Below, piece after piece: positions 20,604 to 32,050 of a stretch of 64,000 bases of DNA. The stretch comes from Zychaea mexicana. Taxonomy: Eukaryota; Mucoromycota; Mucoromycetes; Mucorales; Lichtheimiaceae. How positions within the stretch are numbered: position 1 is the stretch's first letter; the number at the start of each line of letters is the position of its first letter. The notes below the pieces were generated by a model. It saw nothing but the letters and a program-made list of their open reading frames with translations, searched no databases and was not told the DNA's origin. The translations under genes and the position numbers were made by a program. The DNA is taken from positions 186,001 to 250,000 of the forward strand of contig NW_026516695.1 of the NCBI RefSeq assembly GCF_025766255.1, in the 5' to 3' direction.

Positions 20604-21605
20604 CGTCGAAGGATGGGAAGCCTAAGTTGGAGGTGGAGACAAGAAGGATCGACTCTATAAGATGAGTAGAAAGTGAGATAACAGATCTATTGGGTGAATC
20701 AAGATAATTTGTACTTACAGGAAGGCGTGTCCAGCAGCCATGTTTAGCGACGGTCGGTTTCGGCCGTGCATCAAGACAGCTTCGAACGAAGTTCCATAAT
20801 GATGCACGCCTAGCCCATAGCAGAGCATTCCTACCCAAGACTGCCTTAGTCTTATGCCGGCAGGTCCGTCTCTCTCAAGGTTCCCTGAATCATTGTTTGG
20901 GGCCACCTCTTCATGGGCTAAGATATTGTTACCAGGAAGCCCGTAGCAGAGATCTCCCTACTTCTCACTACAATTGCATTGCAGCGATGCCGGTAGGAAT
21001 GTCTCTCTCATGGTTCATCCAAAAGCAGTCAACAAACCGCACGGTTGACGTTGACCACAAATGGAGCACCAATACGGGCTATACCATTGTAAAGCCGTAC
21101 CGTCGCAGGGTGGGAAGCCAAAGTTGGAGGTGGAGACAAGAAGGATCGACTCTATAAGATGAGTAGAAAGTGAGATAACAGATCTATTGGGTGAATCAAG
21201 ATAATTTGTACTTACAGGAAGGCGTGTCCAGCAGCCATGTTTAGCGACGGTCGGTTTCGGCCGTGCATCAAGACAGCATCGGACGATGTTCCATAATGAT
21301 GCACGCCTAGCCCATAGCAGAGCATTCCTACCCAAGACTGCCTTAGTCTTATGCCGGCAGGTCCGTCTCTCTCAAGGTTCCCTGAATCATTGTTTGGGGC
21401 CACCTCTTCATGGGCTAAGATATTGTTACCAGGAAGCCCGTAGCAGAGATCTCCCTACTTCTCACTACAATTGCATTGCAGCGATGCCGGTAGGAATGTC
21501 TCTCTCATGGTTCATCCAAAAGCAGTCAACAAACCGCACGGTTGACGTTGACCACAAATGGAGCACCAATACGGGCTATACCATTGTAAAGCCGTACCGT
21601 CGCAG
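20604..21605. repeat. Tandem duplication, two 497-bp units
   Basis: Unit 1 is 20614-21110 and unit 2 is 21111-21605, with the offset exactly 497. By eye there are only four substitutions between them: one at 20622/21119 and three inside a 12-nt inverted repeat (20780-20791 and 21277-21288). The junction carries a short cgtcg-like similarity, present before unit 1, at the unit boundary and at the end of unit 2, which would fit unequal exchange or replication slippage. Within each unit two related sub-repeats occur (ATGCCGG-AGG...GTCTCTCTCA-GGTTC). On the minus strand each unit has a GTAAGT donor and a TTATAG acceptor about 60 nt apart, so it may be a transcribed or exon-bearing piece, but no known protein is recognised. 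Confidence 0.9.
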
Positions 21606-22302
21606 CATAGTCTATATCAAAAAACAGCGTCATCCAGACAAAAAGTTAAGAATGATTGCACCCTACAGAGAGATTCAACGTTTCTTAAAGAGAGGTCCGT
21701 AAAGTACAATACTTACACTGTAGAAAACGTGACTTTGCACGTTGATCTTGCCATACATTAGAGCCCTCTAAGAAAAGAAAATAGATTGAGAGCGGGTATC
21801 AAGCTTTAAAAGAATAAAAGCGGGAGGATGAAGAGGGGGAGGGTAACTGGCATTCCGCGTTACGAATTGAATTTACCTTGCCATGTGGATTATGTGGGTT
21901 GGGTGAAGAGATCTTGGTCTGGCACCGCGTACCATACTGGCGGTGGAGCGCTATCTTAAATGGGACTTGTTTTATATGAGGCGCCTAATTAGGGCTTTTA
22001 GGTTACACAAAACAGAAAAAAATATTACGAGCTGGTATGTTACGCCGATGGGTCTCGCTCTTTCTTTACAGAATCGTACGCGCACGGCATGGATCGCCTA
22101 GCTCATCATATACAGCTGACTCACTCCTCCAAACGACACTTTTTTCAACGAATCTCACAAATAAAAAGAAGCATGGCAGAAGCGAGAATCGAGCTTTGCT
22201 GATACGGAAGCAGCTTCCAAAACCACAAAGACGAAAGCTTTTGCGGATGCTCAGAAATCTCATTCGAAAATTATGCAGACATTAGCTACTCCGACACCTT
22301 AA
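21606..22302. other. Left flank of the KDZ element
   Basis: No confirmed gene. The last ~140 nt (about 22165-22301) read open as a Lys/Ala-rich stretch (KAFADAQKSHSKIMQTL) to a TAA at 22299-22301, directly before the transposon target site. It could be the tail of a small or disrupted gene; too little to name. Confidence 0.4.
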
Positions 22303-22310
22303 TCTAACTG
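22303..22310. repeat. Left 8-bp target-site duplication (TCTAACTG)
   Basis: Directly abuts the left inverted repeat and is identical to 28298-28305. Eight-base duplications are the reported hallmark of Zisupton/KDZ insertions. Confidence 0.92.
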
Positions 22311-22539
22311 CACCCCAGACCCAAATTATTTGCCCATATTCGGACGCCGTACGGGCCTCTACAAGCTCTACGGAACATACCCTGTGGCCTCTGCGGTGTC
22401 ACGCCGTGCACACCGTAGAAATTATAGTATGCTCAGCCTACCATAGCACCAGCTTTCTCCCTTCTTTTTCTCAGAATAATTCTCACTACATTGCGTCCTC
22501 CATTTCGACAATAAGCAACCAGGAACCCCAACCAGAGCA
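22311..22539 (+). repeat. Left terminal inverted repeat of KDZ element
   Basis: 229 nt that match the reverse complement of 28080-28297. Differences seen: C/T at about 22335, A/G at 22513, and an 11-nt extra block (22451-22461, AGCTTTCTCCC). Contains an internal CGGTGT...ACACCG inverted repeat near 22400-22422 that could be a transposase-binding site. Confidence 0.95.
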
Positions 22540-22764
22540 TCTTTTTCCGGTAGCATACAGTATTATATATATGTATCTGATTTAAATTATGAGGATTAAC
22601 GCTCAACGCAGTATTGAGAAAATAAGTAACAGAATAGGTGCTTATTACACATAATAAAAAATCATATCCGCAAAACAGGTCTAATAACATACAATGTATA
22701 AGTAAGCATAATAAGGATTATAAAAGAGCTCTTGATTTACAACGGCGTATATACATTGCTGGCT

Positions 22765-25700
22765 CTATAGTGTTTCTTCTGAAAGTACTGCATCTGGCAG
22801 AGAAATATCTTCGTCAGGCATAGTATAATCTACTGGCGGCATATACTCATACATCAGCTCGTCATGTTCCTTCTCAATATCCTCATATGTCTCAGCATGG
22901 ACAAAGTAAACGTCTTCGTCATATTCATCGTCCGCATCGTCACCGTATTGTTCGTCGTTGTCGATCTGTGAAATTTCACCAACAGTACGCGGTTTGCTGC
23001 TTCTGATATTACATTCGAGACGTTCAGCTTGTTCCAAAAGATCACCAAGAATAGCTTGCCACCCATCGTCATGCGTCGCCTCTATGGCATCTTGAATGGC
23101 GCTATAACGTGCTGCAGCGTATGCTTCCAGATTCTTTTCTTCGTCCTAAGTGGAAAGTTGAGATCACAGTATGGAGTTTCAATGAAGTACCATAGCACTA
23201 ACCTCGATCATTATCAGCTCTTCCTCGGCGCGCTTAATGTTTATAATACCTCTGAGAACGTCGACGTCGTTGCTTTCTGCTATATGGTGCTGTTCCCAAA
23301 ATCGTGTCTCCAGATGACAGACATCCTCCCACTGGACTTCAGGCTCCAACAACAGATGGCAAGCAGCATTGTATAGCTTCAATTGCTTTTCAGCTGCAGT
23401 GCTTTGTTTCTTGATTGCGCTTCTAACTTTCGTGCTTACTCTTTCGCCTGTTTCATAATTAATTAATTATATCCATCAGCAGCGCTTTCTCATTTTTACA
23501 CTTCAAAAAACAGATATACAATACCTATTTTGCCCTCTCGATTACGCAGCTGATCATACATCATCTTACGCGAGATTATATGTGATTTTAGTTTATACAG
23601 GCTATCTTCCTTTTCTCGCTTTGCTTTTGCTTCTTTTGCGCTTGCGTATTCTGTGCTATTTATCTGCCATCTTCGTTCAGGCTTTAGCACCCTTTCAAAT
23701 TCTGGTAACATTGTCTTCAGCGATCTCGAGCTTTCTTGAGAGCTTTCGAAGCAATCTAAATTTCTCGTCTATTGATGATAGCAATAGCTTAATACGCATA
23801 AACGAAAGGGAGTAGAAATCGTTATACATACCTGCTTCCGCCATAGTCATATTGGCACATTTATCTGGATCTTGAAGCTCCCTCGATAAAGTAATGCGCT
23901 CCGCTCTAATGATGTTTTCCGAATGGTTTAGTTGTCTAAGTATTTTACAGTACTCTACAGAAACACTTTGTAAACTCACTCAACCGCGTAAAAATGTTCT
24001 AGTTCTTCATAATACTGTATTTTTACTGATAGAGGTTTGATACCAGTGAATATAGTACGATCTTTCGATTTTTTATGGACGGTATCTTTGTACGTCTTCC
24101 ATTCTTCTTCGAATCTGAGCTCATCTATCTTCCCGTCCTCGTTTCACCACCAGCATGGCGTACCGCCGGAAGCTACAAGGGTAGCTCTGTGTCGCAAGTA
24201 TGCAGACGCTTGTTCGATGATTGCCTTTGCCCTTTTCGTCCGTTTTTTAAGCGCGTAACCTATCGGTACTATTATGAGTATCACGCAATCATTTATAACT
24301 TCATTTAAAATCATGCATACACATATTGATTATAGTCTTGGCTTTCGAATGACCAATCGCATGCTGTAAAACGAACAGACGTCTCTTGGCGCTCATTTGT
24401 CTAGTCATTGAGACAAATCCTCCAAGGTAGGACCAAAGACGCTCAAGTCCTTCTCCATCTGTCAGTCCAAAGCCGCTTATGAATCGTGGATGATAATCGA
24501 CCTGGCAAGACATTGAATGGGCGTATGCATGGAAAACGGAGACGGCCATCTGTGATCCAGCTTGAGCAAAATTGGGAAATGCTTGCTAATGGTGCATAAG
24601 TAATTAAAGATCAGTTTGTTTACCGGATGCGATGATATTCTTAGACACGGCAAAATACCTTAAATGATGGTTCAAAGCGACAACCAAGATCATACAAAAT
24701 ATTGACATCTTTGTATCCCTTAGTGGCAACAGCAAGCACAGATAGAGCATATTTGTACCTATACAAAGCTCAACATGTAAGTGCATATTATACGCTAGGG
24801 ATTATAGACTGCATGCATGTAAAAAGTATTAAAATTACTTTTCACCAGAAGCAAAGATATTCGTAAACTGAAGTGGAACATTGTGTCTGCCGCATACACA
24901 GCCTACTATTCCACTTTCATAGAACTTCTCGACAGCATCAGAAACGGACGTAACAGCTTTGAGCTCACTCTCGCAACGCTTATTGACGGCATTGGTGACT
25001 TCATGCTTTTCGTAAACGTCATGCATGTTATCAGCCGAGAAAAACGTCGCTGCTTCAGCTTTTTTTGTATCATTTGCATGTGCTTTGCGTCGTCGCAATT
25101 GCATGTTGCCATCGACTGCGACGAACAGTTTTCCTTCCTGTGTAAATTGTATATTGAGTCATTAGCTCATCAAAATATCATGACAGCACTAAATTATAAA
25201 ACGAGAAGGAGACCTTGGGACAAGCCAGACACGCATCTCGCTCCATTGGAGTATTATTGCTGAGCTCGTTAACCATTTCATCCGTCACTTTTTCTTTCAG
25301 CTCCATGTATGCTGTATGTGCATTTCCTAAAGTCTTTCGAATTCTATCAGGATTCTTTATTCCATAAAATTCAAATGTATATACAATACATTAGAATAAC
25401 TGTTATGATAAGTGATTTCGCTCCATTGTGTTATCATCTGATTATTATATTAGCAGTAACAGTACCTCAAACTTGTGCACATAAGAGCAAGCATTTCCAA
25501 AGGCTTGTGCTGCTAAATGACCTTCAGCCAAAAGCGCAGAATAGAAATCAAGCAATGGGAGATGAAATGCTGTCCTCGGCGAGGCGGGAGATGACGGAAA
25601 CAAGTGATGGTAAAGCAAGGTTGAGGCGTCTGATTTACATTCACAGAATGGTATTTTATAACTTTTAATGCCTGTTTCGTATTGTTTTGGACGGCATTTA

Positions 25701-26298
25701 TAGGAATGTTTTAGCAGTTGTCCATATCACAGTATGTTTGGTAATTATTAATGCAACGTAATGCGTTACCGGTAATGAAAACGCAAAGGATCTCCCGTTC
25801 CTTTGTTTTATCGCATGTAGTGCAGCGCGCGTCGAAAAACGGAGTCGTATCGGCCAGACTATAGTCGCTACTTCCCTTGCACTTTACATAGTCTTTCGGT
25901 AGCACCTTAAAAACCTCGGACCAGTTTTCATCAAGAGCTTCCAATTTCCTTTTATGTTCTTCGATGTCATGGTCATTCAGACGAAACACTGTCAAGCCTT
26001 CATTAAAAGCGCTACCAGGACCGTCATAGTCGAGATCATCGGTTTCTCCGTGATCTTCGCGTTACAAAGTATATGTTATCATAAGCAAAGATTTAGTGTG
26101 CTTATAAGCGAATCAGTTACCTAATTGATCATGCTGTGAATTTTGACGCGTATCTCTTATAGTGGGAGCAGAAGCTACAACTGCATCGTCACCAGCATAC
26201 ACTTTGCGGCTTTTCGTTCTCGTTTTCCCATCGCTCAACATCGTGGATTCCACTAGGTCCATGGCGTCGTCTTCGTTGAACCGATCGTTAAAACTCAT
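22765..26298 (-). CDS. KDZ-family transposase with CxC cysteine motifs
   Basis: Minus-strand gene; first seven exons (descending) 26298-26121, 26054-25770, 25671-25466, 25354-25214, 25137-24839, 24758-24659, 24585-about 24316 join in frame. C-terminal exons lie within 24300-22765 but their exact borders were not all resolved; the last ends at TAG 22767-22765. The N-terminus is acidic and Ser-rich. Cys motifs follow: CTTCDKTKE, FCECKSDASTLLYHHLFP and CLACPK. The RNase H-like core shows FVAVDGNMQLRR (first Asp), GIVGCVCGRHNVPLQF, NILYDLGCRF (Asp), VFHAYAHSMSCQ and GFGLTDGEGLERLWSYLGG (acidic). These are the defining KDZ motifs. The C-terminal part is charged and coiled-coil-like (LKPERRWQ..., EEELIMIEV) and ends with an acidic tail. 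It should cut and paste the element. All resolved junctions are canonical GT-AG, so the gene may be functional. Confidence 0.9.
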
Positions 26299-26940
26299 GA
26301 TCTAGTGCTAATAAGATGGTGCGGTCTGTTGTTTGTTACTTTGTAGCTAAGAACCTTCAAAAGATTATTTTTCATTTCAGTTCTCTATATTTATATTGCA
26401 ACACATATTAAGTTGATCACTTCTGTTTATTGCTCAGTAAACGTGCAAGTTGACAAAAAAGTACCACGCGCTTGAGGAAAGCTTCTTTTCCTGTAGTTTT
26501 TTTATGACGATCCCCTAATCCACAATTTATTTTTGTACACAGAAGTACGTTATGTAATAGGGTAAAAATGCTTGGATGCTAGGAACTGTTTCAAATTTCC
26601 TTGCTTTCTAAGAGTATTACTGTGGTTATTTCCAAATTGCACGAAGAAATCCTCCTAATAATTTCATCATTCTCGCTCCACCTCTACCCATCTACCACCA
26701 CACCGTCTAACTCTTTTTGTTCTATGCGGTTTTTTTCAGTTATGGACTCATATTCTTTGTATATGTATAGTATCCTTGTCCATGTCAAGGAACGACCACA
26801 TGTCCCCTAGCGCAGATCACTCTGTCTTCCACAGTAAAATCATGATCTGTAATTTATTAAATGAACTAACATACCTATTGGATGCTAATATGTCGCTTTT
26901 ATCAATAGCAACTTTTTAAAATGTGCTAAACCATTTAATT
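26299..26940. other. Spacer between the two element genes
   Basis: AT-rich, no long frame, inside the KDZ element. Probably the transposase promoter plus the 3' UTR of the upstream gene. Confidence 0.5.
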
Positions 26941-28108
26941 TAAAACTTTTCAAAACTAATTTGGCCATTGATAAGGGCATCATACAGCTCTGACCATCTC
27001 TTATACGGCATGTCACTCGGGCACAAAGCAGTATCTGCCTTTTCGCCAAAATCAAAACCCGTGAATTCGCACCCCAATGTTTCATTTCTGTAGCGAATTA
27101 TGCCACCGTCTGACACCCTCTTGAAACCTTTCCACGGAAACTTTGTCGACTTCGTTGTCTACATACATTCCTTAACAAGTATTGATACATTGATAACTGC
27201 AATGCAGGCACTGCTTGTAACATACTACAGAGTTCAACCATGAGGTCCTTAACCGTGCTTTTCTTTTTGGTAGGCTTTCTGGTCAAACGAGGGCCTGGCG
27301 AAAACGAATAATATACATTAGTAGCTCCTTTTAACAATGCTATGGTGTGTTAGCGATAGTTGCCGCCTGTTGTTCCTATAGTGACAGATTGTTGTTAAGA
27401 AAAGCTAATAAATAGATAATCCTTTTTCTCGATAACGTGTTACTATCACAGTGTATGATAGTATTAACCTTGACAATGTCGATGGAAGTTTGGACGCCCT
27501 CCCATCTTATTCAATGCGTTCTGAGCTTTCTCTTAATAGTTGGTATTAGAACCTTGAATATGAGCATTTCTAAGAAACAGATTTACTACTTTACATACTA
27601 TATGAGACTATAGGTGTAGTAAGCATCCAATCGGTCTCAAACTGGGGAGACATGAGCGTGCCGACATTCCATCCTATGGCCACGCTAGCACGGTGGTTAA
27701 CCGACATGATCTCGCGTCTGAAAGCTCTCCCAAGCTGCTGACGAACATCTAGATCCATAGGAGCCGGTTGCTCCATCATATGGTTTATGCGCTTGACCTT
27801 CTCTTCAAGCTTTTTCTGGTGCTCCTCGTTCATGCGAGCACAGATCGCAGCCAGTTGAGCAGTTGTCGTTGTCAACTCTCCATCGTTATACTGTCTGATA
27901 ATATCTTCCCATTATATATACTAGATAAGTAAAAATTCTCATTTTACCTATATACAAAATAGCAAACCTTCTCGCTCTTCGTCAGTGCTATCTTGAGAAA
28001 GGAAGTGAGTTAACGCGTCCAAGTGGACCACTTTTTGGTTCCCTTAGGGCGGTAATATTTGTCGCTGGAAGCATTTGACTGCTCTGGTTGGGGTTCCTGG
28101 TTGCTCAT
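26941..28108 (-). pseudogene. KDZ-element second gene, unknown function, apparent frameshift
   Basis: Starts with ATG at 28108-28106 inside the right inverted repeat (MSNQEPQPEQSNASSDKYYRPKG). The frame then breaks near 28030: one base shift is needed to continue as VVHLDALTHFLSQDSTDEERE, which is spliced (acceptor at 27906-27905) to DIIRQYNDGELTTTT and a helical block (EEHQKKLEEKVKRINHMMEQ, down to about 27591). Further coding-like pieces are GPRLTRKPTKKKSTVKDLMVEL (27310-27165) and KGFKRVSDGGIIRYRNETLG to QISFEKF, stop at 26943-26941. I do not know this family; basic and helical content could fit a DNA-binding partner of the transposase. The frame break may be a real mutation in this copy or a sequencing error. 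Confidence 0.55.
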
Positions 28109-28297
28109 TGTCGAAATGGAGGACGCAATGTAGTGAGAATTATTCTGAGAAAAAGAAGGTGCTATGGTAGGCTGAGCATACTATAATTTCTACGGTGTGC
28201 ACGGCGTGACACCGCAGAGGCCACAGGGTATGTTCCGTAGAGCTTGTAGAGGCCCGTACGGCGTCCGAATATAGGCAAATAATTTGGGTCTGGGGTG
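28080..28297 (-). repeat. Right terminal inverted repeat of KDZ element
   Basis: 218 nt, reverse complement of the left repeat without the 11-nt block. It includes the ATG (28106-28108) of the upstream element gene; in the left repeat the same codon is ATA. Promoter and leader of that gene must therefore lie in the repeat. Confidence 0.95.
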
Positions 28298-28305
28298 TCT
28301 AACTG
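28298..28305. repeat. Right 8-bp target-site duplication (TCTAACTG)
   Basis: Identical to 22303-22310, confirming the element boundaries. Confidence 0.92.
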
Positions 28306-28489
28306 TTTTAGCTGGCTGGGTGCAAAGGTGACGATAAGGCGTGTTTTTTCGAGGGGAGAATTTAGTGTGTTGTCACACAGGAGAACTTGTCAAAACGAAT
28401 GTCGAACACTTTGTTCGCTTATATTTGATGGGACAGGGCAAGTAGTTTCATCATATACAACACTGTCACACAATTTCTCTAGTGATACG

Positions 28490-29074
28490 ATCCTTGCTTG
28501 AGAGCTCCCTCTAGATGGTGTTGTTGGTACCGATGCAGTTTCTCGAGGAGAAAAAAAAAAGCAAAAAATAAACAATGAACCCAAATACTTGCCAAATCCA
28601 TCAAGTCAAAGATCTTTTGAACTCGTTTCTCGGGAGTATCCTCGTCCTCAGGCAATTTTACCATGCTACCAACCATCTTGTACAGACTTCCACAATACGA
28701 AGCATCTCGTCATGAGCTATACGGCTATCATTGTCTATATCATACAGCTGTTGTTGTTGTTGTTTTTGATGCAAGACAGATAAAAGTTATTAAAACCTTT
28801 ACTCTGATTAGATGACATTCTTTGCTATCAATCTTATATACAATACCTGAAAAGCCCCTGGATATGATACATTTTGTTTAAAATGTTTATTCTTTGGGAT
28901 TAATCGCGCTAACCACGAATGATTGTAAAAATGTGAATGAAGAAACTTACAGAGGAGCTTCTCACCTATCCGTCCACGACTAGTAACGCACAAGGCGCAG
29001 ATGACTGAGAGAATCCTCCTTTACAGATATGATTTGACAGCAGCTTGCTTGGGGATTCATGGAAAAAGTATACC
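28490..29074 (-). pseudogene. NCS-1/frequenin calcium sensor, pseudogene
   Basis: Conserved blocks of neuronal calcium sensor 1 appear in order on the minus strand: YFFHESPSKLLSNHI (about 29072-29030), VTSRGRIGEKLL (about 28985-28945), [20 protein letters not shown] (third EF-hand, 28752-28692) and [21 protein letters not shown] to KIFDLMDL (28685-28607), then a weak EGALKQGS (near 28510). Functional NCS-1 is a myristoylated EF-hand protein that regulates phosphatidylinositol 4-kinase. Here a one-base loss after RIVE shifts frame, the segment carrying the second EF-hand is largely missing, the third loop has lost its usual Gly (DNDS), and the last EF-hand is unrecognisable. The KDZ element sits about 190 bp from its 3' end. 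A functional copy presumably exists elsewhere. Confidence 0.8.
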
Positions 29075-32050
29075 TATTTAACATGCTCGCTACTTGTACA
29101 TATTATGAGCAAGATGTCATAAAAGTGGCACTATTAAGCGGCTCTAGATATCACTATGCATGTTAATGATATGCGGATGTTCTATGCTCTTACGCAAAAG
29201 TGCCGATGCGGCCTTTTAACAGCGAACTCGCAAAAGACAGCCAGATTGTACTACTGTATTGTTCTATGAAATACATCCGGTCACTGTATAGATCATATGT
29301 CTTCTAGATTAAAAAGTCAGTGCAGAAACAATGCAACGGTGTATTGAACAGCACCAGTGACCACCAATAGGAAGATGCATTGTATGTCGTTCTGAGGGTG
29401 GTCTTGTTGGACTATCACTACTCGAACGCTCTAATGCATATAATAATTATACTTGATGATATTACAAATCACAATTAACATCATACAGTGTTATTATCAT
29501 CAAAAAAGGTTGTATATGTAAAGTGAATGTGCCCTATCTGGCGAAAACTTCACTCAAGTTAATAGTTACGAATTCATTCTCACCAACAGAATTGAAGGAG
29601 ATTTTGTATGTTATGGCCGAACACATTATGTACAACATGACTACTACTGTACTGAAGAGAATGTTATGATAAGTAACTAGCCTAACTTAGAGCAACCAAA
29701 ATCATTAGTCGGGTTGAAGTGGTTGGACCTACAGGTTGGGTAGTAGTTTTCAAAACATTCTAAGAGGTAGCGATATTCGTAGACTAATATTACCATAGTA
29801 GAGAGCCATCACTCGTTTCATAACGCAATGCCTCACCTGACTCTTACTGTCACATTACACTTGCATGTATTATATGATCCATTGGCATGTAATCTTCCTC
29901 ACATTGACGGTTATCTTGCATATACATAAGTATGATAAGCTTTTCTTTTTCCAATGCAAACATAACTCAATGGCGACATTATACTGTCGCCCCCTGTTAG
30001 TTTCGCATTAATATGCCTCTTGACTCTTTTGTTTTTAAATTTTTATTCAGACGTGGCGTAGGATTCTCAAAGCCGACTCCAAGTACGACTCAAGTCAAAG
30101 GCTCATGAAATGTTCCCAAGTATGTATTGTTAAGCCAGCAACTCAGTTTGCATTGATAATTTCCTTGTCGTTCTACCGCTTCGTAACTTATTACTACATT
30201 AGTACGACCTGATTTTGATGATTCATAGTAAAAAGCGAGCCTATCAATTTCAAGATTTAAGTAGAAAGTTTAAGATTACCGAAATCATACCAGATTGGAA
30301 AAGTGTTTTATGCTATCTTGTTGACATTTACGTGCATTATAATGATGATGCGTACCATATACTAAACTGAACTTGAAGTGCTTTTATTTTACTGGAGTAG
30401 ACCTGAGCCCCTGAGGAACTTGAAGTGCTTAGTCCTAGTGCGTTTGCGTAATCATCGGATGCTAGACATCTTCTTCAGGTTACAGTATCAAAGGCGCTCG
30501 ATGCTATCTTCAAGAGCGACATGCAATATAAAGAGCTTCATGAAACCATTGGGACAGGCAGCTTGCAGAACATAGGTCTAAGCCATTTCTCTGGTGTTTG
30601 TAGCCTAGTTGATTAAATAACCACCAAATTGTTGGAGGGCGTTATTCTGGGGAGCAAGACAAGGGTGTAGAACACACAGCTCAACGCACTTGTCCATGCC
30701 GTTGCAGACGAAGACGAAGACGGCTGCGCTCGGCCCAGCGAAGGACTCTTAAAAACAGGTAACGATCAGGGATTTCAAATTTAGATTGACCGTACGATAT
30801 CCACATGTAGGTATATGTCGTTGAGAGACAGAGAGAAAGCTAATACATAGACGCCACTATCGATGACGCTAAACGCACATCCGCTTTCCTCTATGATGGC
30901 CATCTTGATGTTCCTGGTGTGTGCACATGCATTATGAGACCTTACGGACTGCGTGTAACCCGGTCGAGCATCTATGTTTTAATGCGAGCTGCTCTGTGCT
31001 ATTTAAACAAGAAAAGAGAGACTTGATTTATATTGCTTCCCGATCAAAACCACTCTCTTCCGTCTCTTCTCCTCGTCCACATAAAGCACTTCTTTTCTCA
31101 CTCCCACTTCTCTTTTAGGGAACGAACGTCTGAGCAAAGGCAATGACAAGCACTAGCGGACGCGTGACGAAGGTGACACGTAGATAAGCAATGCATCAAC
31201 AACACCACCAGAACAATGGCCGTACATAGCGTCAACAGCAGCAATAGCAACCACGATGAACTGCAGCAGCCTCAACAGCAACAAGAATGAAGCCATAATG
31301 GTTTCGAGGCCCAGCATCAGACGCTTCTGTGAAAGGACGAGGAGACCAATAATCGCCGGTATAGATTTTTCGAAAGACAAGAATGCCCCCGTCATGCGCC
31401 ATTATCGATAGTCTAGGCCTTGTGTAACCTCAGTGTCGAGTAGAAGAAAAGCGTGTCAATCAAGTAGAGACACTTCAAAAGAGCCGTGTAGAAAGACGAG
31501 ACTAGTGTGTACGTGTAGCCTGGAGTGTGCATTTTGCAAGGCGGGAATGTCATTGAGGTTGCATTCCCAATGCCTCGGGAGATGACAGACCCATAGTACG
31601 GTGTGTCCAGAGTGTGCTTGTCGGTGTAACATGGCATCACCTGGGCTGGCAAGTGACGCTGTCAACTCTCTTTCTTTCCTTGGAAGTCACCAGACATGCG
31701 AATGGGCCTAAGAGAATTATGGGGACTCGGGCAAAAGATATGGTTATCAGACGCTAAAGTCGCTTCCCAACTGTTGTGACGTGCTGACTAAAGCATTACT
31801 GGTGATGAAGACAGTTAGAGTGTCCGATGGATACAAGGGGTTCTCGCGTATATACGTTGGTTCGGCCTCGTTGCGGCCAGTAGTAGATGCATCACTCGAG
31901 AAATCATCCGAAATGCACAAAAGGATGGCAAATTACGCGCTAAAGGGTCGAAAGATGTAGTAAGTCATCGTTCATAGTGCTGTTTTTTAATCGTCCAATT
32001 GATCCTGAACGCTTCTCAAAAAGAACGTAGGACCACTCAAAAACAAACGA
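29075..32050. other. Gene-poor interval
   Basis: About 3 kb with dense stops. Two short stretches look weakly protein-like but have no recognisable motif: KALDAIFKSDMQYKELHETIG (+, about 30490-30550) and MKTVRVSDGYKGF (+, about 31805-31960). They may be gene relics. Confidence 0.4.

Follow-up and report, generated by a model that had tools for sequence, protein, structure and literature searches.

Whether a transposable element whose ends look complete and young still encodes the means to move by itself is the question raised by a locus of the Mucorales fungus Zychaea mexicana. It lies within a stretch of 64,000 bp of one contig (C232, 186001-250000; hereafter the window, to which unprefixed coordinates refer), in which positions 22311-28297 form a DNA transposon of 5,987 bp belonging to the Kyakuja-Dileera-Zisupton (KDZ) superfamily, a name that reportedly goes back to Iyer et al. 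2014. Our favoured reading, to which we assign a probability of roughly 0.93, is that this KDZ cut-and-paste transposon of low copy number is represented here by a copy complete in structure, which landed recently in a dispersed repeat, has lost the capacity to encode a full transposase and was most likely mobilised in trans. The genome searched comprises 50.3 Mb in 305 contigs; contigs are denoted by C and copies of the element by c plus the contig number, the window copy being c232.

The element and its insertion site

The following features delimit the element:
22303-22310, no strand: left copy of the target site duplication (TSD), 8 bp, reading TCTAACTG, of which one copy is present in the paralogous empty site on C190
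22311-22539, plus strand: left terminal inverted repeat (TIR), 229 bp, starting with CACCCCAGACCCAAATTATTTG
28080-28297, minus strand: right TIR, 218 bp, differing from the left arm by an 11-bp indel and two substitutions
28298-28305, no strand: right TSD copy, 8 bp, reading TCTAACTG

The original prediction, made from the letters of the window, held that both ends and both target-site copies are present, and this is what we find: the element 22311-28297 has the termini 5'-CA..TG-3' and is flanked on either side by TCTAACTG, an exact 8-bp agreement with a chance expectation of ~1.7e-5 calculated from the base composition of the window. Aligning the TIR arms reproduced the difference that had been estimated by eye, namely 2 mismatches and a single 11-bp gap in an alignment of 218 bases.

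Evidence for the insertion comes from sites that lack the element. We removed the element together with one TSD and compared 180 bases of joined flank with the genome, for c232, c36 and c55. The joined flank of the window gave 8 matches, two being its own flanks and three others covering all 180 bases (C190:258838, 99%; C57:507741, 96%; C190:337252, 91%). The sequence at C190:258838-259017 aligns over 180/180 bases with 2 mismatches, contains a single TCTAACTG and lacks the element; the C57 site, with 7 mismatches in 180, likewise has a single TCTAACTG and no element. The match to C190:258838 extends over 2,228 bp at 97.7% identity (19 mismatches, 5 gap openings), and it defines the repeat into which the element was inserted:
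20780-22310, no strand: left part of the invaded repeat, in two aligned pieces (20780-21108 and 21279-22310), matching the C190 empty site
28298-29497, no strand: right part of the invaded repeat, 97.75% identical over 1,200 bp to the C190 empty site

An empty site had been proposed as a check between strains; the paralog on C190 provides it within the same genome, without a second strain, and the sequence doubled around the element stands there once and not twice. The single-TSD site on C190 and the long match show that the target was a single member of a dispersed repeat and that the insertion took place after this member had split from the C190 member.

Other copies occupy other sequences. 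The joined flank of c36 has four junction-spanning matches (C61, C43, C32 and C68), the one at C61:3221-3400 with 4 mismatches in 180, and its joined flanks contain an open reading frame (ORF) of 309 codons matching a retrotransposon gag (E=3.6e-7). Joining the flanks of c233 yields an ORF of 245 codons, the 3' part of which matches an Mss51 zinc finger (E=3.1e-18), and the joined-flank ORF of c55 has no match in Pfam. For c55 the genome search returned just its own two flanks and no empty site.

Within the invaded repeat beside the element, positions 28479-28709 (minus strand) carry an NCS-1/frequenin-like exon (NCS-1 in the PDB, E=1.8e-11). The fragment is also present in the repeat copy on C190, and no further NCS-1 exon came up when the window was scanned for motifs, which gives the fragment the appearance of a pseudogene remnant that travels with the repeat. 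To the left of the element, positions 20708-21702 contain two ORFs that resemble each other and are spaced by some 500 bp, which suggests a tandem duplication within the repeat.

Copies in the genome and relative age of the insertion

A genome search with the left end, as had been proposed, gave 22 matches, 16 of which are both ends of eight end-to-end copies spanning 5,967-6,565 bp. The remaining six comprise c280, cut by a contig end, the truncated copy c267a, two matches at a site of rearrangement on C267, and short matches on C291 and C198. Exact 8-bp TSDs flank 7/8 end-to-end copies, the flanks of c55 agreeing at 6/8 positions. Closest to the window copy are c248 (99.60% identity) and c113 (99.24%), the latter with a 610-bp insertion inside transposase exon 11, followed by the other copies at 98.1-98.7%.

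Private substitutions, counted only at columns gap-free in all eight copies, number 5 in the window copy; the remaining seven full-length copies have 5 (c233), 8 (c66), 12 (c248), 24, 28, 42 and 51, the four lowest values belonging to the copies that share the in-frame TGA codon described below. Judged by these comparisons the window insertion is young, in relative terms and without a figure in years. The earlier claim of a young insertion thus stands on the 5 private substitutions and the empty site, and loses the similarity of the TIRs as its basis. Dating by TIR divergence was rejected, as the 11-bp indel is common to c232, c248 and c113 and hence older than the insertion. TIR similarity is no clock for a DNA transposon because the arms are inherited, which is a practical caution for work on such elements.

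Two places on C267 (C267:200291 and C267:221899-223571) lie 23 kb apart and have an element end and about 1 kb of flank in common (98.4% over 1,284 bp); inverted flank pieces at one of them indicate a rearranged duplication.

The transposase and its family

The transposase gene and its domains are as follows:
22765-26298, minus strand: transposase gene, 12 exons, 904 codons
26298-26121, 26054-25770, 25671-25466, 25354-25214, 25137-24839 and 24758-24659, minus strand: transposase exons 1-6
24585-24321, 24259-23980, 23935-23832, 23755-23525 (or from 23768), 23447-23203 and 23145-22765, minus strand: transposase exons 7-12
25484-25836, minus strand: CxC1 zinc-cluster domain, exons 2-3 (Pfam PF18802, E=6.2e-14, 52.5 bits, cut-off 26.9)
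24349-25131, minus strand: KDZ catalytic domain, exons 5-7 (Pfam PF18758, E=1.8e-47, 162 bits, cut-off 26.6)
24144-24146, minus strand: in-frame TGA in exon 8, codon 530 of 904, replaced by another codon in 5/9 copies covering the site

All 11 introns of the window copy are GT-AG, most splice sites are conserved in the other copies and the database gene model of copy c55 (P0001) has, by eye, most of the same exons. Six database proteins, P0001 and P0057-P0061, match the element, all of them from Z. mexicana. Pfam at E<=0.1 reports KDZ, CxC1 and CxC2 only. Among 56 related proteins, found by a search that scored the 7,998 candidates sharing most words, all have a KDZ domain; they come from Mucorales, Glomeromycotina, Pucciniales, Tilletia, Agaricomycetes and Cryptococcus. 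In 49 aligned proteins of these 56 an acidic D-D-E set is conserved, with D237, D351 and E406 of P0001 at >=90% and E409 invariant, and these residues are presumably catalytic. The element therefore combines a KDZ domain, a CxC cluster, a D-D-E set, TIRs and an 8-bp TSD, confirming the superfamily assigned in the original prediction, of which it is a new family.

A quick tree of 57 rows, consisting of the window protein and the proteins from the search, midpoint-rooted, with several long branches flagged and no labelled reference elements, places 12 Mucoromycota rows, from Mucorales and Glomeromycotina, on one side of a branch (Shimodaira-Hasegawa-like approximate likelihood ratio test, SH-aLRT, 99). 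As the Mucoromycota rows stand together, nothing in the protein set points to a transfer from Basidiomycota.

KDZ sequences abound throughout the genome, with 75 exon-level matches at E<=0.001, and a comparison of 30 KDZ loci yielded seven DNA-level clusters and one singleton. One further KDZ gene, on C207, C146, C111 and C69, belongs to a unit of at least 9.6 kb, the C207 and C146 copies being 99.3% alike over 9.65 kb, and this unit may represent either a large element of recent origin or a segmental duplication. Neither ends nor TIR of this family were found over the 9.65 kb, and the same holds for the C1/C77 family, whose members are alike over 3.2 kb, C77 being truncated where its contig stops. 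Long TIRs and 8-bp TSDs are thus not to be generalised to the KDZ elements of the Z. mexicana genome.

Interruptions of the transposase frame

An intact transposase is a part of the original prediction that did not hold. Its description as a largely in-frame multi-exon gene is right as regards the 12 exons, 904 codons and GT-AG introns and fails at the in-frame TGA in exon 8 and at an extra base in exon 10. The protein is interrupted by an internal stop also after splicing, and none of the eight full-length copies has an unbroken frame under either exon-10 acceptor (two partial copies being uncounted).

The TGA at codon 530 is common to c232, c248, c233 and c66, with a different codon in c36, c55, c234, c113 and c267a. 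As compared to c233, c66, c55, c234 and c267a, the copies c232, c248, c36 and c113 have one extra base in exon 10; the downstream acceptor would preserve the frame of this long form and the upstream one that of the short form, the downstream AG being absent from c233 and c66. The copies are grouped differently by different sites, 4 sites joining c232, c248, c233 and c66, 19 joining c232, c248, c36 and c113 and 21 joining c232, c248 and c113. That the TGA is common to two pairs which other sites separate suggests exchange between copies.

Variable sites number 35, 26 and 27 of 828 each at codon positions 1, 2 and 3, 32/819 in introns and 131/2,453 outside the transposase, these codon counts excluding exon 10 (7/231 variable) on account of its disputed frame. 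As third positions show no excess of variable sites, there is no hint of constraint within the family. C-to-T differences amount to 31/493 in CG, 43/794 in CA, 19/411 in CC and 17/709 in CT context; repeat-induced point mutation was considered and rejected for want of a clear CpA signature, CA lying above CT yet not above CG.

A model of mobilisation and its alternatives

Because of the in-frame stop and the lack of an open frame in all eight full-length copies, the window copy is probably non-autonomous. We propose a model according to which a KDZ transposase, comprising a presumed RNase H-like D-D-E domain and a CxC zinc cluster, would bind the long TIRs, excise the element and join it to the target at positions staggered by 8 bp, subsequent repair giving rise to the 8-bp duplication. 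Most likely the window copy would have been mobilised in trans by the protein of another copy, since it encodes neither a full transposase, the stop preceding the helical C-terminal part, nor an open gene 2, the accessory gene treated below. The simplest reading would be that the younger members of the family were moved in trans, for which an intact copy outside the assembly, readthrough or another KDZ family may be the source of activity.

The same element could still be autonomous if readthrough or splicing bypassed the exon-8 TGA and the frame were opened by the downstream acceptor of exon 10. With this acceptor the remainder of the 904-codon frame is indeed open in c232 and c248, and the TGA-bearing copies have the fewest private substitutions, so that the TGA did not stop recent spread; however, the upstream-acceptor reading of exon 10 looks closer to relatives (P0001 and P0002, by eye and unscored), and the TGA-free copies have other breaks, as expected of decay in a trans-mobilised family. 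We consider autonomy improbable. Somewhat more credible, while still unlikely, is a dead relic, i.e. a family extinct in this strain, with the youthful look of the window copy owing in part to gene conversion. The absence of an open transposase from the eight full-length copies would fit such a relic, as would the conflicting site patterns (4 versus 19 sites), which suggest mosaic copies, but the exact TSD and the empty site with 19 substitutions in 2,228 bp put the insertion late, a result that conversion cannot produce.

Another superfamily could be suggested by the 8-bp duplications, which also occur in Mutator-like elements, and by the best structural match, ISCth4. In hAT elements such duplications are usual, according to the part of PMC12730594 available. 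No hAT is among the structural matches listed, which excludes nothing. Against another superfamily, Pfam gives KDZ, CxC1 and CxC2 only and the KDZ domain is present in all 56 relatives, making such an assignment scarcely credible. The trans-mobilised KDZ copy remains our preferred reading.

A second gene

Besides the transposase the element contains a further gene:
26940-28108, minus strand: gene 2 (accessory gene), 4-6 exons, starting inside the right TIR with its start codon at ~28108

In c55 and c234 gene 2, as modelled, has 6 exons and an uninterrupted frame of 276 codons. In c66 the reading has the same length and lacks the start codon, the database model of this copy (P0059) having 4/6 of the blocks. 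In the window copy a break at 28019 disrupts the frame, and the AG that serves as first-intron acceptor in other copies is absent. A Pfam scan gave no match near the cut-off and the PDB no match of weight, the fold prediction was uninformative (P0059, mean predicted local distance difference test score, pLDDT, 40.5), and protein searches found gene 2 in Zychaea only, by a method that depends on identical words being shared and would overlook remote homologues.

In the genome the last exon of gene 2 has matches outside the family at C297:14293, C234:265563 and C41:3833 (E 0.0015-0.007), each with a KDZ match on the same strand 1,313-1,443 bp downstream. The relatives have a common block, FPW..FKR...GF.FG, with 17 invariant columns (93 columns, 4 rows, two of them near-copies), and reverse searches recover the window family at E 3e-4 to 0.03. 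As the C297 and C41 copies belong to one family (97-98%), two independent families combine gene 2 and KDZ besides that of the window. We tentatively suggest, at somewhat less than even odds, that Mucorales KDZ elements include a two-gene class with a conserved partner gene of an undescribed family. This gene would share the orientation of the KDZ domain and lie 1.3-1.8 kb upstream of it, and its product may be needed for transposition or tune it, comparable to the second DNA-binding protein of other superfamilies. Weighing against such a partnership, 4/7 places outside the family (C265, C294, C64 and C143) have gene-2-like sequences without a listed KDZ match nearby, which may be solo or decayed relatives. 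Searches of the open-licence PMC literature found no report of a two-gene Mucorales KDZ element. If gene 2 is a true partner, the superfamily, known chiefly through its transposase, would gain a further component.

The public gene model P0058 (BDB00DRAFT_787584) on C232 merges the NCS-1-like exon with gene 2, and P0060 (c55) and P0061 (c36) appear by eye to be similar fusions; caution is needed as public models here fuse transposon and host exons.

Comparison with known systems

The original prediction regarded intact KDZ elements as far less described in Mucoromycota than elsewhere, which is true in relative terms and has to be qualified by Zisupton_6, a family with new insertions in Phycomyces, also of the Mucorales, found by repeat-annotation software (PMC11258239). 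It resembles the Zychaea element as a KDZ element newly inserting in a Mucorales host, its structure and TSD being undescribed in the available part of that source; the available parts of PMC6416283 and PMC9297572 add nothing on Mucorales. In the literature searched, as far as its accessible text goes, KDZ activity is thus reported in Mucorales, without an anatomy of such an element. KDZ proteins of Fennellomyces, Circinella, Absidia, Mucor, Rhizophagus and Diversispora have the same KDZ domain, the best-scoring relative outside Zychaea among the candidates scored having 37% identity over 83% of the query.

Kojima 2025 reports, in the part available, 8-bp TSDs in Zisupton and in Zisupton-1_PGr, a Dileera element (PMC12730594). 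The Dileera and Zisupton elements of Basidiomycota have the KDZ superfamily and the 8-bp TSD in common with the Zychaea element and differ in that a TET/JBP dioxygenase gene is present in the elements characterised in that work, no such domain being called in the Zychaea transposase or gene 2. Kyakuja of Laccaria, described in the same text with a 7-bp TSD, no TIRs and 5'-CA..TG-3' ends, also has a KDZ transposase; of its three hallmarks the Zychaea element, with its 8-bp TSD and TIRs of 229 and 218 bp, agrees in the CA..TG ends alone.

Closest in anatomy is the active KDZ1 of Cryptococcus neoformans, which according to the accessible text of PMC12810828 transposes in culture, encodes a KDZ + CxC1 transposase, is bounded by TIRs of 241 bp and is flanked by 8-bp TSDs. 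Both elements have this domain combination, long TIRs (241 bp in KDZ1, 229/218 bp in Zychaea) and an 8-bp TSD, whereas KDZ1 measures ~11 kb as compared to 6.0 kb, was seen transposing in the laboratory and is presented in that text without mention of a second gene such as gene 2. With its ends, TSDs, empty sites and relative copy ages determined, the Zychaea family provides a fully bounded Mucorales KDZ family, by which the KDZ signature becomes comparable outside Basidiomycota.

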